Shown in pieces: positions 5,963 through 16,510 of a DNA stretch of 47,138 nt (its first letter is position 1; each line of letters starts with the position of its first letter). Under the pieces are notes generated by a model. That model had not been told where the DNA came from. It was given only the letters and a program-made list of their open reading frames with translations, and ran no database searches. Origin of the DNA: a virus; IMG/VR virus record IMGVR_UViG_3300022929_000052, positions 1 through 47,138 of that record; one strand, written 5' to 3'. Both the position numbers and the translations under genes were made by a program.

Positions 5963-6005
5963 TGCCCGCTTGTCGGGCTTCCTAGCGCGTTTTAAAGAGT
6001 TAATC

Positions 6006-6287
6006 ATGCCACGGGCGGCGGCGCGGGGATTGCTGAAAACATACGGCGGAAAAATCACGGCGGGGCGCGATACGAAAAACGCGGGGCGCGATACGAAAAA
6101 CGCGGGGCGCGGGCGTCGGTATTTTTAAAAATTTTCACGGCGCATGGATGCCGGGCGAATAAATGCCGGGCGAATTGCGCGGCGCATGATACGCGGGCGG
6201 CGGGGCGTGATGCGCGGGCGTCGGGGCATGATGCGTGATGCGCGGGGCGTCGTCGGGGCCCCGCCATATCGGGTCAAAAAACCGTGA
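6006..6287 (+). pseudogene. Interrupted Arg/Gly-rich repeat ORF
   Basis: From an ATG at 6006 (AAAGAG upstream) a 40-residue basic ORF with the repeat AGRDTKN ends at a TAA at 6126-6128. The same frame continues without further stops through an ATG at 6144 to a TGA at 6285-6287, again with AGR units (DAGRINAGRIARR, then RGRRGVMRGRRGMM). So a possible 93-residue basic protein is split by one stop codon. It may be a broken gene, two tiny genes, or chance ORFs in low-complexity GC-rich DNA. Codon composition cannot decide, since the DNA itself is repetitive. Confidence 0.3.
6060..6111. repeat. 21-bp direct repeat, 2.5 copies
   Basis: GCGGGGCGCGATACGAAAAAC occurs at 6060-6080 and 6081-6101 and begins again at 6102-6111. 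Degenerate GCGGGGCGTSATGCGC-like units continue to about 6250, making the tract 6050-6260 low-complexity and very GC-rich. Confidence 0.9.
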
Positions 6288-6390
6288 TAAATCAACAAGT
6301 TACAAAGATCACGCAGCGCGGCCGCAGGCTTTGCTGGCGCAGGCAAGGGCCATGTTTCTCTCAAATATTTATATAAAAAACGATATGGGT

Positions 6391-6406
6391 TGTTTCACGT
6401 GAAACA
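6391..6406. other. parS: Perfect parS (centromere) site
   Basis: TGTTTCACGTGAAACA is a perfect 16-base palindrome and identical to the consensus chromosomal parS that bacterial ParB proteins bind. It lies in the 255-base gene-free interval before terL. No parA or parB gene is present in the window. The expected partner is therefore host ParB, or a phage ParB outside the window. Identity is read directly from the sequence; function in the phage is inference. Confidence 0.85.
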
Positions 6407-6407
6407 T

Positions 6408-6469
6408 TGCCTATTTTTTAGGCACCTCCTGCCCAAATACGGGGCTTAAATTGCCTATTTTTTAGGCAA
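6408..6469. repeat. Twin inverted repeats TGCCTA-T5-TAGGCA
   Basis: TGCCTA TTTTT TAGGCA occurs at 6408-6424 and TTGCCTA TTTTT TAGGCAA at 6451-6469, 44 bases apart and immediately beside the parS palindrome. They may be operator sites for a dimeric regulator of the terL transcript or RNA hairpins. The remainder of 6288-6542 is AT-rich and shows no ORF. Confidence 0.8.
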
Positions 6470-6480
6470 AAACGGAAAAC

Positions 6481-6511
6481 TTGTTAACTGTGCAAAAAAC
6501 AGGCATATATA
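6481..6511 (+). promoter_or_regulatory. Possible promoter upstream of terL
   Basis: TTGTTA (6481-6486) is followed by an AT-rich -10 region (CATATATATTTTATAAA, 6504-6520). Spacing to a good hexamer is 19 bases (TATATA at 6506-6511), so the match is imperfect. A promoter is expected here because the packaging and head genes begin at 6543 after a terminator. Confidence 0.35.
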
Positions 6512-6542: not shown

Positions 6543-7988
6543 ATGGATGTTTCCGATCAGGAGTTGAAGCTTCGCCTGCGACTCGCGCAAATCGAAAAGA
6601 ATGAAGCTTGTCAGGAAGACTTTTTAATTTTTGTAAAAACTATGTGGCCGGAGTTTATTGCTGGTCGGCACCACAAGATCATTGCGGAAAAGCTGGAAAG
6701 AGTTGCAAAAGGCGAACTAAAGCGCTTGATTATCAACATGGCCCCGCGTCATACGAAGTCAGAGTTCGCATCCTTCTTGTTTCCGGCGTGGATGATGGGC
6801 AAGAACCCGCGGATGAAAATTATTCAGGCAACGCACACCACGGAGCTTGCCGTTAACTTTGGTCGTAAAACCAAAAACCTTTTAGACGACGACCGCTATA
6901 AAGAGGTGTTCCCTGATGTTAAGTTGGCTGCGGACAGTAAGGCGTCTGGACGTTGGGATACCTCTAGCGGAGGCATGTACTATGCTGTTGGCGTTGGCAG
7001 TAATCTTGCTGGCCGTGGCGGCGATCTTGTAATTATTGACGATCCGCACTCGGAGCAGACAGCGATGTCCGCTAACGGGTTTGACGACGCTTGGGACTGG
7101 TACACAGGGGGCCCCCGGCAGAGGCTCCAGCCGGGTGGGTCGATTGTTTTGGTCCAGACCCGGTGGTCAGAGAAGGATATGACAGGTCAGCTTTTGAAGG
7201 CGATGGCTAAAGACCCTCTAGCGGACCAGTGGGAAGTTGTAGAGCTACCAGCTATTTTTGACGACGGGACCCCGTGTTGGCCGGAATTTTGGTCAATCGA
7301 AGACCTTACGGCGGTGAAGGCGTCCATTCCTCCGAGCAAGTGGAACGCGCAGTACCAGCAGAACCCTACCGGCGAAGAGAACGCAATTATTCCTAGAAAT
7401 TGGTGGAAGACTTGGGAGAAAAAGAACATCCCCAACCTTGAATATGTTATACAAAGCTATGATACAGCGTTTAGCAAACGGGAGACCTCTGACTTTTCAG
7501 CGATCACCACGTGGGGTGTTTTTCGGCCGGAGGACGTTGGGGGGCCCCCGGGGTTAATTCTTTTGGATAGTAAGAAGGGGCGGTGGGATTTCCCGGAGCT
7601 AAAGCAGATTGCTTTGGAGCAATATAACTACTGGGACCCCGACACCGTCATCGTGGAAGCTAAAGCGTCTGGTCTACCGCTCACGCATGAGTTAAGAAAC
7701 ATGGGGATACCCGTTGTTAACTTTACGCCGAGCAAGGGTAATGATAAGATAACGAGAGTTCATTCTGTGTCCCCCTTGTTTGAGGCGGGAATGGTTTGGG
7801 CCCCCGACGCTACCTTTGCGGACGAGTTGATAGAAGAGGTAGCGGCGTTCCCGAATGGCGAGTACGATGATTTGGTGGATAGCATGACGCAAGCTCTTAT
7901 GAGATATAGGCAGGGCAATTTTATCCAGCTACCGTCAGACGACTGGGGTGATGATGTGGAAAGTCTTAAAGTAAGGGCGTATTACTAA
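6543..7988 (+). CDS. terL: Terminase large subunit
   Basis: This is the ATP-driven DNA-packaging motor and headful nuclease. The ATPase half has a Walker A-type APRHTKSE at residues 67-74 and Walker B LVIIDD at 162-167, followed by PHSE. The C-terminal RNase-H-like nuclease has the acidic triad candidates Asp307 (SYDTAF), Glu372 (VEAKASG) and Asp443 (YDDLVDS). At 481 residues it is full length for this family. AGGGG precedes the ATG. It is separated from terS by nearly 5 kb of accessory genes. It runs directly into the next gene with a TAATG overlap. Confidence 0.95.
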   Translation: MDVSDQELKLRLRLAQIEKNEACQEDFLIFVKTMWPEFIAGRHHKIIAEKLERVAKGELKRLIINMAPRHTKSEFASFLFPAWMMGKNPRMKIIQATHTTELAVNFGRKTKNLLDDDRYKEVFPDVKLAADSKASGRWDTSSGGMYYAVGVGSNLAGRGGDLVIIDDPHSEQTAMSANGFDDAWDWYTGGPRQRLQPGGSIVLVQTRWSEKDMTGQLLKAMAKDPLADQWEVVELPAIFDDGTPCWPEFWSIEDLTAVKASIPPSKWNAQYQQNPTGEENAIIPRNWWKTWEKKNIPNLEYVIQSYDTAFSKRETSDFSAITTWGVFRPEDVGGPPGLILLDSKKGRWDFPELKQIALEQYNYWDPDTVIVEAKASGLPLTHELRNMGIPVVNFTPSKGNDKITRVHSVSPLFEAGMVWAPDATFADELIEEVAAFPNGEYDDLVDSMTQALMRYRQGNFIQLPSDDWGDDVESLKVRAYY

Positions 7989-10073: not shown

Positions 10074-12509
10074 ATGGCTCGTGAACCGATTGCTGGGATG
10101 ATTGAAAAGAACGTCCCGTCACAGCTTGACATGGAAGATTTAAGTGCCGAGGTGGAGTTAGAGCTCCCCGGCAGCATGGACAATGTCGTGTCCTTTGAAG
10201 GTATGTCGGAAGACATGGACATTGAGATATCCCCGGAAGAGGACGGAGGGGTAACAGTTGATTTCGAGCCTGCCGATCAGCGGGGCGAAAGCGACGATTT
10301 TTACATGAATTTGGCAGAAGAGATGCCAGACCGTGAGTTAAGCCGCATTGCGGGAGAACTCATGTCTGAGTTTGATGCCAACAAGGCTAGTAGACAGGAT
10401 TGGGAAGATGCTTACGCTAACGGTTTGGAGTTGTTGGGATTCAATTACGAAGAAAGAAGTCAGCCGTTCAGAGGCGCTTCCGGGGTTACGCACCCGTTGC
10501 TTGCCGAGGCGGCTACGCAGTTTCAAGCGCAGGCGTTCAATGAGTTGCTGCCAGCCAGCGGGCCCGTGCGAACTACTATTATGGGAAGCGAAACTCGGGA
10601 TAAACAGCAACAGTCCCAGCGCGTAAGGCAGTTTATGAATTTTTACATCACTAATGTGATGGAAGAATACACGCCTGAACTAGATCAAATGCTGTTTTAT
10701 TTGCCGTTGGCGGGGTCTACGTTCAAAAAAGTATATTACGATGAGACGTTAGGTCGGGCAGTAAGTAAGTTCATTCCCGCAGAGCACCTCGTAGTGCCGT
10801 ATGAAACGTCTGATTTAGAGACTTGCCCCAATATAACGCAAGTTTTGCGTATGTCTTTGAACGATTTACGCAAGAAACAGGTGGCCGGGTTCTATTTGGA
10901 TATACCTGTATTGCCCGCGCAGGCTGAAGCAGACGCCGTAACCAGTGAAATCGACTACATTGACGGCATTTCATCGTCTCAAATCGACTATGATTGTACT
11001 ATTTTGGAGTGTCACGTCGATCTAGACCTTGAGGGATACGAGGATACTGACGAAGACGGTGAGCCGACAGGCATCAAAATACCATATGTAGTCACAATTA
11101 GTCAGGACAACGGGAAAATCCTGTCAATTCGCAGGAATTACCGCGAAGAGGACGAAAACAGGCGTAAAATTCAGTATTTTGTGCATTATAAGTTCCTTCC
11201 GGGGTTCGGTTTCTACGGTTTGGGCTTAATCCACACTATTGGCGGGTTGTCACGCACCGCCACGGCGGCTCTGCGGCAGTTGATCGACGCCGGTACGTTG
11301 TCCAATCTTCCAGCGGGTTTCAAGGCCCGTGGGCTACGTATCCGAGACGACGATGATCCGTTGCAGCCCGGGGAGTTCCGTGACGTGGACGCACCCGGTG
11401 GGGCTATACGTGACAGCCTTATGCCGTTGCCTTTTAAGGGGCCTGACCAGACGTTATTCCAGCTTTTGGGCTTCGTTGTAGACGCTGGTCAGCGTTTTGC
11501 CACCATTACTGACATGAAAATTGGTGACGGTAACCAACAGGCGGCGGTAGGCACAACTATTGCCCTGCTAGAACAGGGTTCCCGCGTGATGAGCGCGGTG
11601 CATAAGCGTTTACATTACGCTATGCGGCTTGAGTTTAAGCTTTTATCCAGAGTTATGTCCGAGTTTTTGCCTCAAGAATATCCTTATTCTGTTGAGGGTG
11701 AAGACTCTTCTGTCATGGCGTCAGATTTTGATGACCGTATTGACGTAGTTCCGGTGTCTGATCCGAACGTATTTAGTCAGGCTCAGAGAATTGCACTAGC
11801 TCAGACTAAATTGCAGTTGGCGGGTGCGGCTCCGGATATGCACAATATGTACGAGGTATATCGGGACATGTACGAGGCACTTGGAGTTAGGGACACAGAC
11901 CGTATTATGAAGCGGATTCCTGACGACGAGCCGACACCAAAAGACCCTGCTCAAGAAAATATAGATGTAATGGACATGATCCCGCTACATGCCTTTGAGG
12001 GACAAGAGCATCAGTCGCATATCATGGCTCATATGGTTTTTGGTACAAGCCCGACTGTTGCCGGGATGCCGGGAATGGCTATGGCCTTGCAAAAGCATAT
12101 TATGGACCATGTGCGTATAATGGCTCGGGAACAGGCGGCAGTACAGTTTATCCAGAGTAGGCAAGCGGTTGGCGGAGAAGCGGCCACCGAAGAAGAAATG
12201 CTGCAAATTGAAGGGCTTACAGCACAGTTCGTTGCTGAAGGTATGAAGATGGTTAAGCAGATGTCTGCTGAAGTTTCTGGTCAGGGCCCTGATCCGTTGG
12301 TTAAGCTTAAAGAGCAGGAGCTACAAATTAAGGCGCAGGCCGAGCAGGCAGATGCCCAGAATGACCAAGCACGGCTCAACCTTGATGCGGCTAACCAGCG
12401 GATGCGAGCGGATCAGTTCCAGCAGCGCCTTTCTAGCCAAGAGCGTCAGACCGCGGCGCGTATTCAGTCTGCTATGGAACGGGAGATGCTAAAACAACGG
12501 GGAGACTAG
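10074..12509 (+). CDS. Portal protein
   Basis: The portal forms the dodecameric DNA gate at one head vertex. The 811-residue protein has an acidic N-terminus, then a portal-like core with FYGLGLIHTIGGLSRTATAA and ATITDMKIGDGNQQAAVGTT in the middle. The C-terminal 130 residues are a Gln/Ala-rich coiled coil (KEQELQIKAQAEQADAQNDQ), as in portals with a long barrel. AAAGGAG precedes the ATG. Position directly before the lysis and scaffold/capsid genes fits. Portal identity is by overall pattern and context, not by a single motif. Confidence 0.85.
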   Translation: MAREPIAGMIEKNVPSQLDMEDLSAEVELELPGSMDNVVSFEGMSEDMDIEISPEEDGGVTVDFEPADQRGESDDFYMNLAEEMPDRELSRIAGELMSEFDANKASRQDWEDAYANGLELLGFNYEERSQPFRGASGVTHPLLAEAATQFQAQAFNELLPASGPVRTTIMGSETRDKQQQSQRVRQFMNFYITNVMEEYTPELDQMLFYLPLAGSTFKKVYYDETLGRAVSKFIPAEHLVVPYETSDLETCPNITQVLRMSLNDLRKKQVAGFYLDIPVLPAQAEADAVTSEIDYIDGISSSQIDYDCTILECHVDLDLEGYEDTDEDGEPTGIKIPYVVTISQDNGKILSIRRNYREEDENRRKIQYFVHYKFLPGFGFYGLGLIHTIGGLSRTATAALRQLIDAGTLSNLPAGFKARGLRIRDDDDPLQPGEFRDVDAPGGAIRDSLMPLPFKGPDQTLFQLLGFVVDAGQRFATITDMKIGDGNQQAAVGTTIALLEQGSRVMSAVHKRLHYAMRLEFKLLSRVMSEFLPQEYPYSVEGEDSSVMASDFDDRIDVVPVSDPNVFSQAQRIALAQTKLQLAGAAPDMHNMYEVYRDMYEALGVRDTDRIMKRIPDDEPTPKDPAQENIDVMDMIPLHAFEGQEHQSHIMAHMVFGTSPTVAGMPGMAMALQKHIMDHVRIMAREQAAVQFIQSRQAVGGEAATEEEMLQIEGLTAQFVAEGMKMVKQMSAEVSGQGPDPLVKLKEQELQIKAQAEQADAQNDQARLNLDAANQRMRADQFQQRLSSQERQTAARIQSAMEREMLKQRGD

Positions 12510-16015: not shown

Positions 16016-16483
16016 ATGACAGAACAGAACATTGATCGGACTTCTCGCGCAAATCAAACTCGGGAGAAAACGGCAAAGCGTAAGCCGTGGGCTCCCCCAT
16101 CTATGTTGGATGCACCGCCTGCACCGGATGGTTTTAAGCATCGTTGGATCAGGGCTGAAACCCGTGGTTTTGACGATACTAAAAACGTAAGCGCTAAGAT
16201 GCGCGAAGGTTGGGAACTGGTTCGTAAGGACGAGTACCCTGACTTTGAGGCCCCGGTAGTTGACTCAGGTAAGTACGAAGGTGTGTTTGGAGTAGGTGGC
16301 CTTATTCTCGCACGGATTCCAGTGGAAACGGTGGCAGAAAGAACCGCATATTTTAACCAAAGAAGTGCGGATCAAATGCAAGCCGTGGACCAAGATATGA
16401 TGCGCGAGAATGCTCATTCATCCATGACGATCAATAAACCTGATCGTCAATCTCGTGTAACTTTTGGCGGCCCACAGAGATAG
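16016..16483 (+). CDS. Head-region hypothetical protein
   Basis: A 155-residue protein between scaffold and capsid. A basic disordered N-terminus precedes the core FKHRWIRAETRGFDDTKNVS (about 40-59) and KMREGWELVRKDEYPDF, with GLILARIPVETV later. Conserved proteins of this form accompany capsid genes in several aquatic podoviruses, to my recollection, without an assigned role. Virion or assembly function is inferred from context. Confidence 0.7.
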   Translation: MTEQNIDRTSRANQTREKTAKRKPWAPPSMLDAPPAPDGFKHRWIRAETRGFDDTKNVSAKMREGWELVRKDEYPDFEAPVVDSGKYEGVFGVGGLILARIPVETVAERTAYFNQRSADQMQAVDQDMMRENAHSSMTINKPDRQSRVTFGGPQR

Positions 16484-16510
16484 GGTCGCCCTGATTAGGA
16501 GAAAAATCAA

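Follow-up and report, generated by a model that had tools for sequence, protein, structure and literature searches.

What does a phage gain from a bacterial centromere? This question is raised by a tailed podovirus in which a 16-bp word, TGTTTCACGTGAAACA, lies at positions 6391–6406, shortly ahead of the gene for the terminase large subunit. The window, i.e., the whole stretch of DNA analyzed here, is a linear IMG/VR record of 47,138 bp and probably a fragment of a genome of ~55–58 kb, for the rest of which relatives stand in. The word matches the universal chromosomal parS in 16 of 16 positions, is a perfect palindrome with no strand assigned and is kept in relatives. It agrees exactly with the 16-bp palindromic chromosomal consensus TGTTNCACGTGAAACA, in which one position is left open (PMC7022226). 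One exact copy occurs in the window and no other match at up to three mismatches, a threshold at which shuffled window sequence gave 0.23 matches on average; composition arithmetic predicts ~1e-5 exact copies by chance in 47 kb at 48% GC. No ORF of 60 aa or longer overlaps the site, and a gap of 136 bp separates it from the downstream terL. A perfect and non-coding parS palindrome just before terL, very unlikely to be a chance copy, was also what a preliminary description of this DNA had reported, and these points are confirmed. Chromosomal parS sites lie near parAB and oriC, whereas this one is on a phage genome, in a window where parA and parB were not found. It may work like parS, yet it is not part of a chromosomal locus.

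Genes for the small terminase subunit (terS, 1178–1843; PHROG 51, E 1.8e-12), the large subunit (terL, 6543–7988; PHROG 38, E 6.5e-108) and the portal protein (10074–12509; PHROG 1216, E 1.1e-54) are, like all structural genes of the window, on the plus strand. The TerL protein is 62% identical to those of Pelagibacter phage HTVC027P and phage 023Pt_psg01, and 54–58% identical to those of HTVC023P and DSL-LC04. Abutting parS is an imperfect inverted repeat, TTGCCTATTTTTTAGGCA (6407–6424), with a second copy at 6451–6468 that is also present in relatives with the site at −151 from terL (e.g., L125, L126 and L131); neither copy has an assigned strand. Most relatives have one related copy of the repeat after parS (e.g., TTGCCTAATTATTAGGCA), more variable than parS itself. 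These repeats are a possible operator or hairpin of a late control region. Further toward terL, alignment of upstream regions points to a candidate terL or late-gene promoter on the plus strand (6481–6509; TTGTTA, a 17-bp spacer and CATATA), the layout of which recurs in relatives as TTGTTAACTG...GCATATT. A scan with the promoter consensus scored no better than shuffles, and we propose this promoter only weakly, from the alignment. Upstream of parS, at ~6000–6300, the spacer is GC-rich, repetitive and hypervariable, with the words CGGGGCGCG and GATGCGCGGGCG. The cumulative GC skew showed no switch at parS.

Conservation was assessed in 80 IMG/VR loci retrieved by TerL alone, the site not being used in selection. 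The exact word is present in 64 of them, mostly at −107 to −110 or −151 from terL, and the runner-up 16-bp palindrome in five. Clustering at 95% terL identity yielded 47 lineages, 44 of them with informative upstream DNA. A site lies within 400 bp upstream of terL in 33 of these 44 and is exact in 32 of the 33, which share a mean terL identity of 80%. Fourteen of the 16 parS columns are 100% invariant across the 33 lineages and the other two 97%, in flanks that are mostly 0.4–0.9 conserved and contain insertions and deletions. As judged from this alignment, the 16-bp non-coding word is evidently under strong purifying selection. In the L150/L154 subclade, parS and the neighboring repeat are cleanly missing from an otherwise intact upstream block, and in L164, L166 and L178 parS was not found in the available fragments; in the remaining loci without an exact site, the contig is cut off near terL or the word differs at one position (L151, L167 and L172). 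About 27 of the 80 contigs stop within 525 bp upstream of terL. A fixed physical genome end at parS was rejected because these ends are scattered, and an assembly break in the GC-rich spacer is more likely.

These data bear on whether the word arose by chance or drifted into being in its spacer. Isolated single matches do exist, as HTVC027P illustrates below, but ~1e-5 copies expected per genome compare with 64 of 80 loci, and the columns stay invariant within a varying spacer; we regard such an origin as practically negligible, and relatives together with the control palindromes described below rule it out. Absence from all related phages, or drift in a fast-changing spacer, had been named beforehand as outcomes that would speak against a parS function, and the alignment of the interval across relatives returned the opposite on both counts.

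In HTVC027P, a one-mismatch word, CGTTTCACGTGAAACA, lies 4 kb upstream of terL. Its relatives show an open frame there reading AFHVKHPN, a conserved protein stretch in which changes fall at silent positions. We hence rejected HTVC027P as cultured proof of parS, the word being located in an unannotated frame with silent changes in relatives; the near match is best read as a coding coincidence. The surrounding positions 16207–16499 of HTVC027P (L202), between gp31 and gp32, likely form an unannotated, nuclease-like coding stretch with the motif FSPHQ.AFHVKHPN. A true parS site was found in none of HTVC027P, HTVC023P, 023Pt_psg01 and DSL-LC04. The nearest cultured relatives thus do without it, and not every member of the superfamily needs the trait.

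Searches for further sites, as proposed earlier, returned exactly one per genome (up to two mismatches searched) in each of the ten relatives that reach 30 kb or more, as in the window. The position of this one site changes. It lies ~1,058 bp upstream of terL in eight loci (L183, L184, L186, L191, L192, L197, L199 and L201) and, as a one-mismatch copy, ~1,055 bp upstream in L172. In the loci at about −1,058, the same site-plus-promoter block precedes a terS–terL pair: terS adjoins terL in this subgroup of relatives, with parS upstream of both, and a rearranged order is seen in L045. L161 has lost the terL-proximal site from an intact promoter block, and its exact site is instead found 6,656 bp upstream of terL; at the corresponding spot, the sequence of the closely related L164 is unrelated. 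Among distant relatives, parS occurs between terL and portal, after portal, after the capsid gene or within coding linkers, and in L055 and L084 the word is kept in a diverged linker; as these sets were found via the word itself, they show possible positions, not frequencies.

Such mobility matters for a local regulatory role, in which ParB bound at parS would spread and repress, delay or insulate the adjacent late promoter and thereby tie the timing of the late genes (terL and those for packaging and structure) to ParB occupancy. In the window's group the site is indeed located ~30–75 bp upstream of the conserved promoter-like block, both move as a unit when terS precedes terL, and conservation beside terL could also stem from regulation; moreover, P. 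aeruginosa ParB at an inserted parS reduced expression of adjacent genes (PMC7022226). The L161 promoter block, however, is intact with its site 6.7 kb away, the varied positions in distant relatives do not suit control of one promoter, and loss of Spo0J in B. subtilis left parS-adjacent genes unchanged (PMC7022226). We therefore hold local regulation to be unlikely. Gating of terL, one of the roles considered in the preliminary description, is weakened by the several other places at which relatives carry the site, and of the "phage control region" described there the conserved promoter-like block near the site stands, but the site does not belong to any one promoter. Its free position speaks more for a centromere that serves the whole genome than for control of a local promoter.

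Alternatively, ParB clamps or ParB-loaded SMC might organize phage DNA near the start of terminase action or tag it for packaging, and in the loci examined the sites do group near the genes for terS, terL, portal and capsid. This clustering is partly a sampling effect, however, since relatives were recognized by those very genes. A pac or cos element would be fixed, whereas this site shifts by kilobases, and other TerL relatives do without it, which makes a role in packaging or DNA folding improbable.

The word recurs in a second lineage. Contig L044, the TerL of which is only ~28% identical to that of the window, has five parS sites, and 38 of 80 loci fetched by the L044 TerL have one to five exact copies, a frequency that does not come from a random sample because this lineage was picked for carrying the word; the runner-up palindrome occurs in three loci. 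Most copies are located in the 2 kb upstream of terL, with positions varying from one relative to the next, and their repeated exact occurrence is far beyond chance. About half of the second-lineage loci are without the word, among them truncated loci and GC-richer relatives. Upstream of terL in L315 and L374, small genes alternate with parS copies across a variable 2-kb region in which GGTACC words recur.

Multiple sites would be expected if replicated phage genomes served to soak up host ParB and so disturbed host segregation or division to the advantage of the phage. Many phage copies do amount to many sites, and the second lineage offers up to five per genome. For a sponge, however, the single site in each genome of the window's group is odd, as several copies would be cheap, and we give titration little credence.

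Across IMG/VR, TGTTTCACGTGAAACA, TGTTCCACGTGGAACA and TGTTCCACGTGAAACA were each found in at least 120 stretches, compared with 0 and 5 stretches for two composition-matched control palindromes, the latter of which retains the CACGTG core. Among the matches listed, the share of contigs that encode relatives of window proteins is about a quarter to two fifths. In four relatives of the window phage (L463, L500, L501 and L491), TGTTTCACGTGAAACA and TGTTCCACGTGGAACA lie ~24 bp apart. With TGTTCCACGTGGAACA and TGTTCCACGTGAAACA occurring in phages, the phage variants include changes at the position left open in TGTTNCACGTGAAACA (PMC7022226); the variants scanned were chosen by us, and rarity of other changes does not follow. 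One IMG/VR contig of 116,662 bases (L087) contains eleven TGTTCCACGTGAAACA copies within 14 kb, those listed all being on the same strand, and also one parS. It is either an element that bears a large parS array or a host origin region misplaced among the viruses.

These phages encode many proteins of unknown function, and one of these, rather than ParB, could read the word, or the word could be a conserved element of some other purpose. The 16/16 match, the finding that this phage group also has the two other standard chromosomal variants of parS and the sharing of the word by very different phage lineages speak against this, and we consider it very improbable.

If ParB is the reader, it does not seem to be made by the phage. 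The ParB_N domain (PF02195) gave no match in 16 records, i.e., the window and 15 close or reference records. It was likewise without match in 18 of 18 second-lineage records, 46 of 49 other parS-bearing records and 39 of 39 records with TGTTCCACGTGGAACA; the positive controls matched. ParA-type AAA_31 (PF13614) and tyrosine integrase (PF00589), the latter looked for as a mark of integrating temperate phages, were each found in 0 of 21 records, the window being included in the ParA search. Absence of parA and parB from the window had been noted from the sequence before, and the recommended parB search thus extends this observation to relatives. Because PF02195 and PF13614 gave no match, a phage-borne ParABS system was rejected. 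With ParB and ParA not found in the phages, host ParB is the likely reader, and we think it very probable that it binds phage parS.

Plausible hosts do carry the word. The 14-bp parS core is present in 233 of 289 sampled alphaproteobacterial genomes, typically in ~2 copies, against one genome for a reversed control, and its flanks mostly complete the full 16-bp word; this sample stands for plausible hosts. Metagenome-assembled genome (MAG) bins with relatives of the phage were assigned to Rhodobacteraceae, Verrucomicrobia (two) and Maricaulis. These three groups are unrelated and belong to Alphaproteobacteria or Verrucomicrobia; chromosomal core copies were found only in the alphaproteobacterial MAGs and in neither of the two Verrucomicrobia MAGs. 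Within the alphaproteobacterial sample, one 1.8-Mb genome (G311) has 79 copies of GTTTCACGTGAAAC versus ~2 in typical relatives, and four others (G292, G153, G084 and G283) have 13–18.

Conservation, copy number, mobility, the arrays of the second lineage and the lack of a phage ParB together strongly support a functional parS for host ParB. The core of the earlier proposal, that the phage recruits host ParB, hence gains strong support. We favor, with a probability of roughly 55%, the reading that this phage, which has no partition genes itself, carries a functioning centromere of the host type, through which host ParB would couple the phage genome to origin positioning. ParB made by the host would bind phage parS after infection, load as CTP clamps and spread over adjacent phage DNA. 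The phage genome would then join host ParABS, either carried by ParA or clustering with ParB complexes assembled at the origin of the host. As a benefit, the infecting genome would be positioned and retained, and inherited if the host divides before lysis. A single site could suffice: P. aeruginosa can segregate its chromosome with one parS (PMC4368675), and one parS together with chromosomal par genes stabilizes and positions plasmids (PMC7022226). Segregation or positioning is the best fit of the four roles proposed beforehand; that it is the effect for which phage parS was selected has, in our estimate, an even chance.

The direct precedent is phi29. A passage in PMC9437464, citing Meijer et al. 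2005 (EMBO J 24:3647), reports that host Spo0J (ParB) takes the phage genome into the spore. We found four copies of TGTTCCACGTGAAACA in the phi29 genome, all in the same orientation. Like the window phage, phi29 is a tailed podovirus with exact host-type parS words, and the combination of host-type parS without parB is also found in the window phage. It differs as a 19-kb phage with four sites and a spore-forming host, whereas the window's group is aquatic, is not known to infect spore formers, has genomes of ~55 kb, a terminase and one perfect site, and its use of ParB is inferred from sequence. Phage-plasmids such as P1, N15 and the parABS mycobacteriophages encode their own ParA and ParB and use different sites of their own. 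P1- and N15-type phage-plasmids thus share with the window's group a centromere on a phage genome, but the latter is without their partition genes; as ParA and ParB were not found, the window phage does not fall into the phage-plasmid ParABS class. The chromosomal ParABS systems of B. subtilis, P. aeruginosa and Caulobacter use the same 16-bp palindrome, of which one copy can suffice (PMC4368675, PMC7022226), in contrast to the window parS located on a phage genome without parA and parB and away from a chromosomal origin. Another parallel is described in a passage of PMC9437464 on CtrA sites in alphaproteobacterial phages, which are intergenic and have been suggested to link infection with the cell cycle of the host (lytic deferment). 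Both kinds of site lie in phage intergenic regions and belong to host cell-cycle proteins; CtrA, however, is a transcription factor, whereas parS is a centromere read by ParB. In the open literature searched we found no work on parS in this aquatic phage group, and the papers checked on HTVC027P/HTVC023P-type phages mention neither parS nor ParB. What is new is the occurrence of such a parS in an apparently widespread aquatic phage group.

As far as we found, phi29, with its sporulating host, is the only lytic phage documented to use a host centromere. Here, the phage parS word is under strong selection, as its conservation suggests, in an abundant aquatic group and recurs in other lineages. 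This suggests that ParB, usually deemed a housekeeping protein, is a common phage contact point. As the word can be searched for directly, the trait is mappable across viromes. We may tentatively speculate that a large, common group of apparently non-integrating aquatic podoviruses ride the host origin via a borrowed centromere and are inherited by slow-growing, dividing cells while lysis can be deferred. If true, such a carrier state would require no phage-encoded partition, integration or repressor genes. The phage parS thus offers a simple, testable entry point for asking how the genomes of lytic phages find their place and are passed on in slow-growing environmental bacteria.
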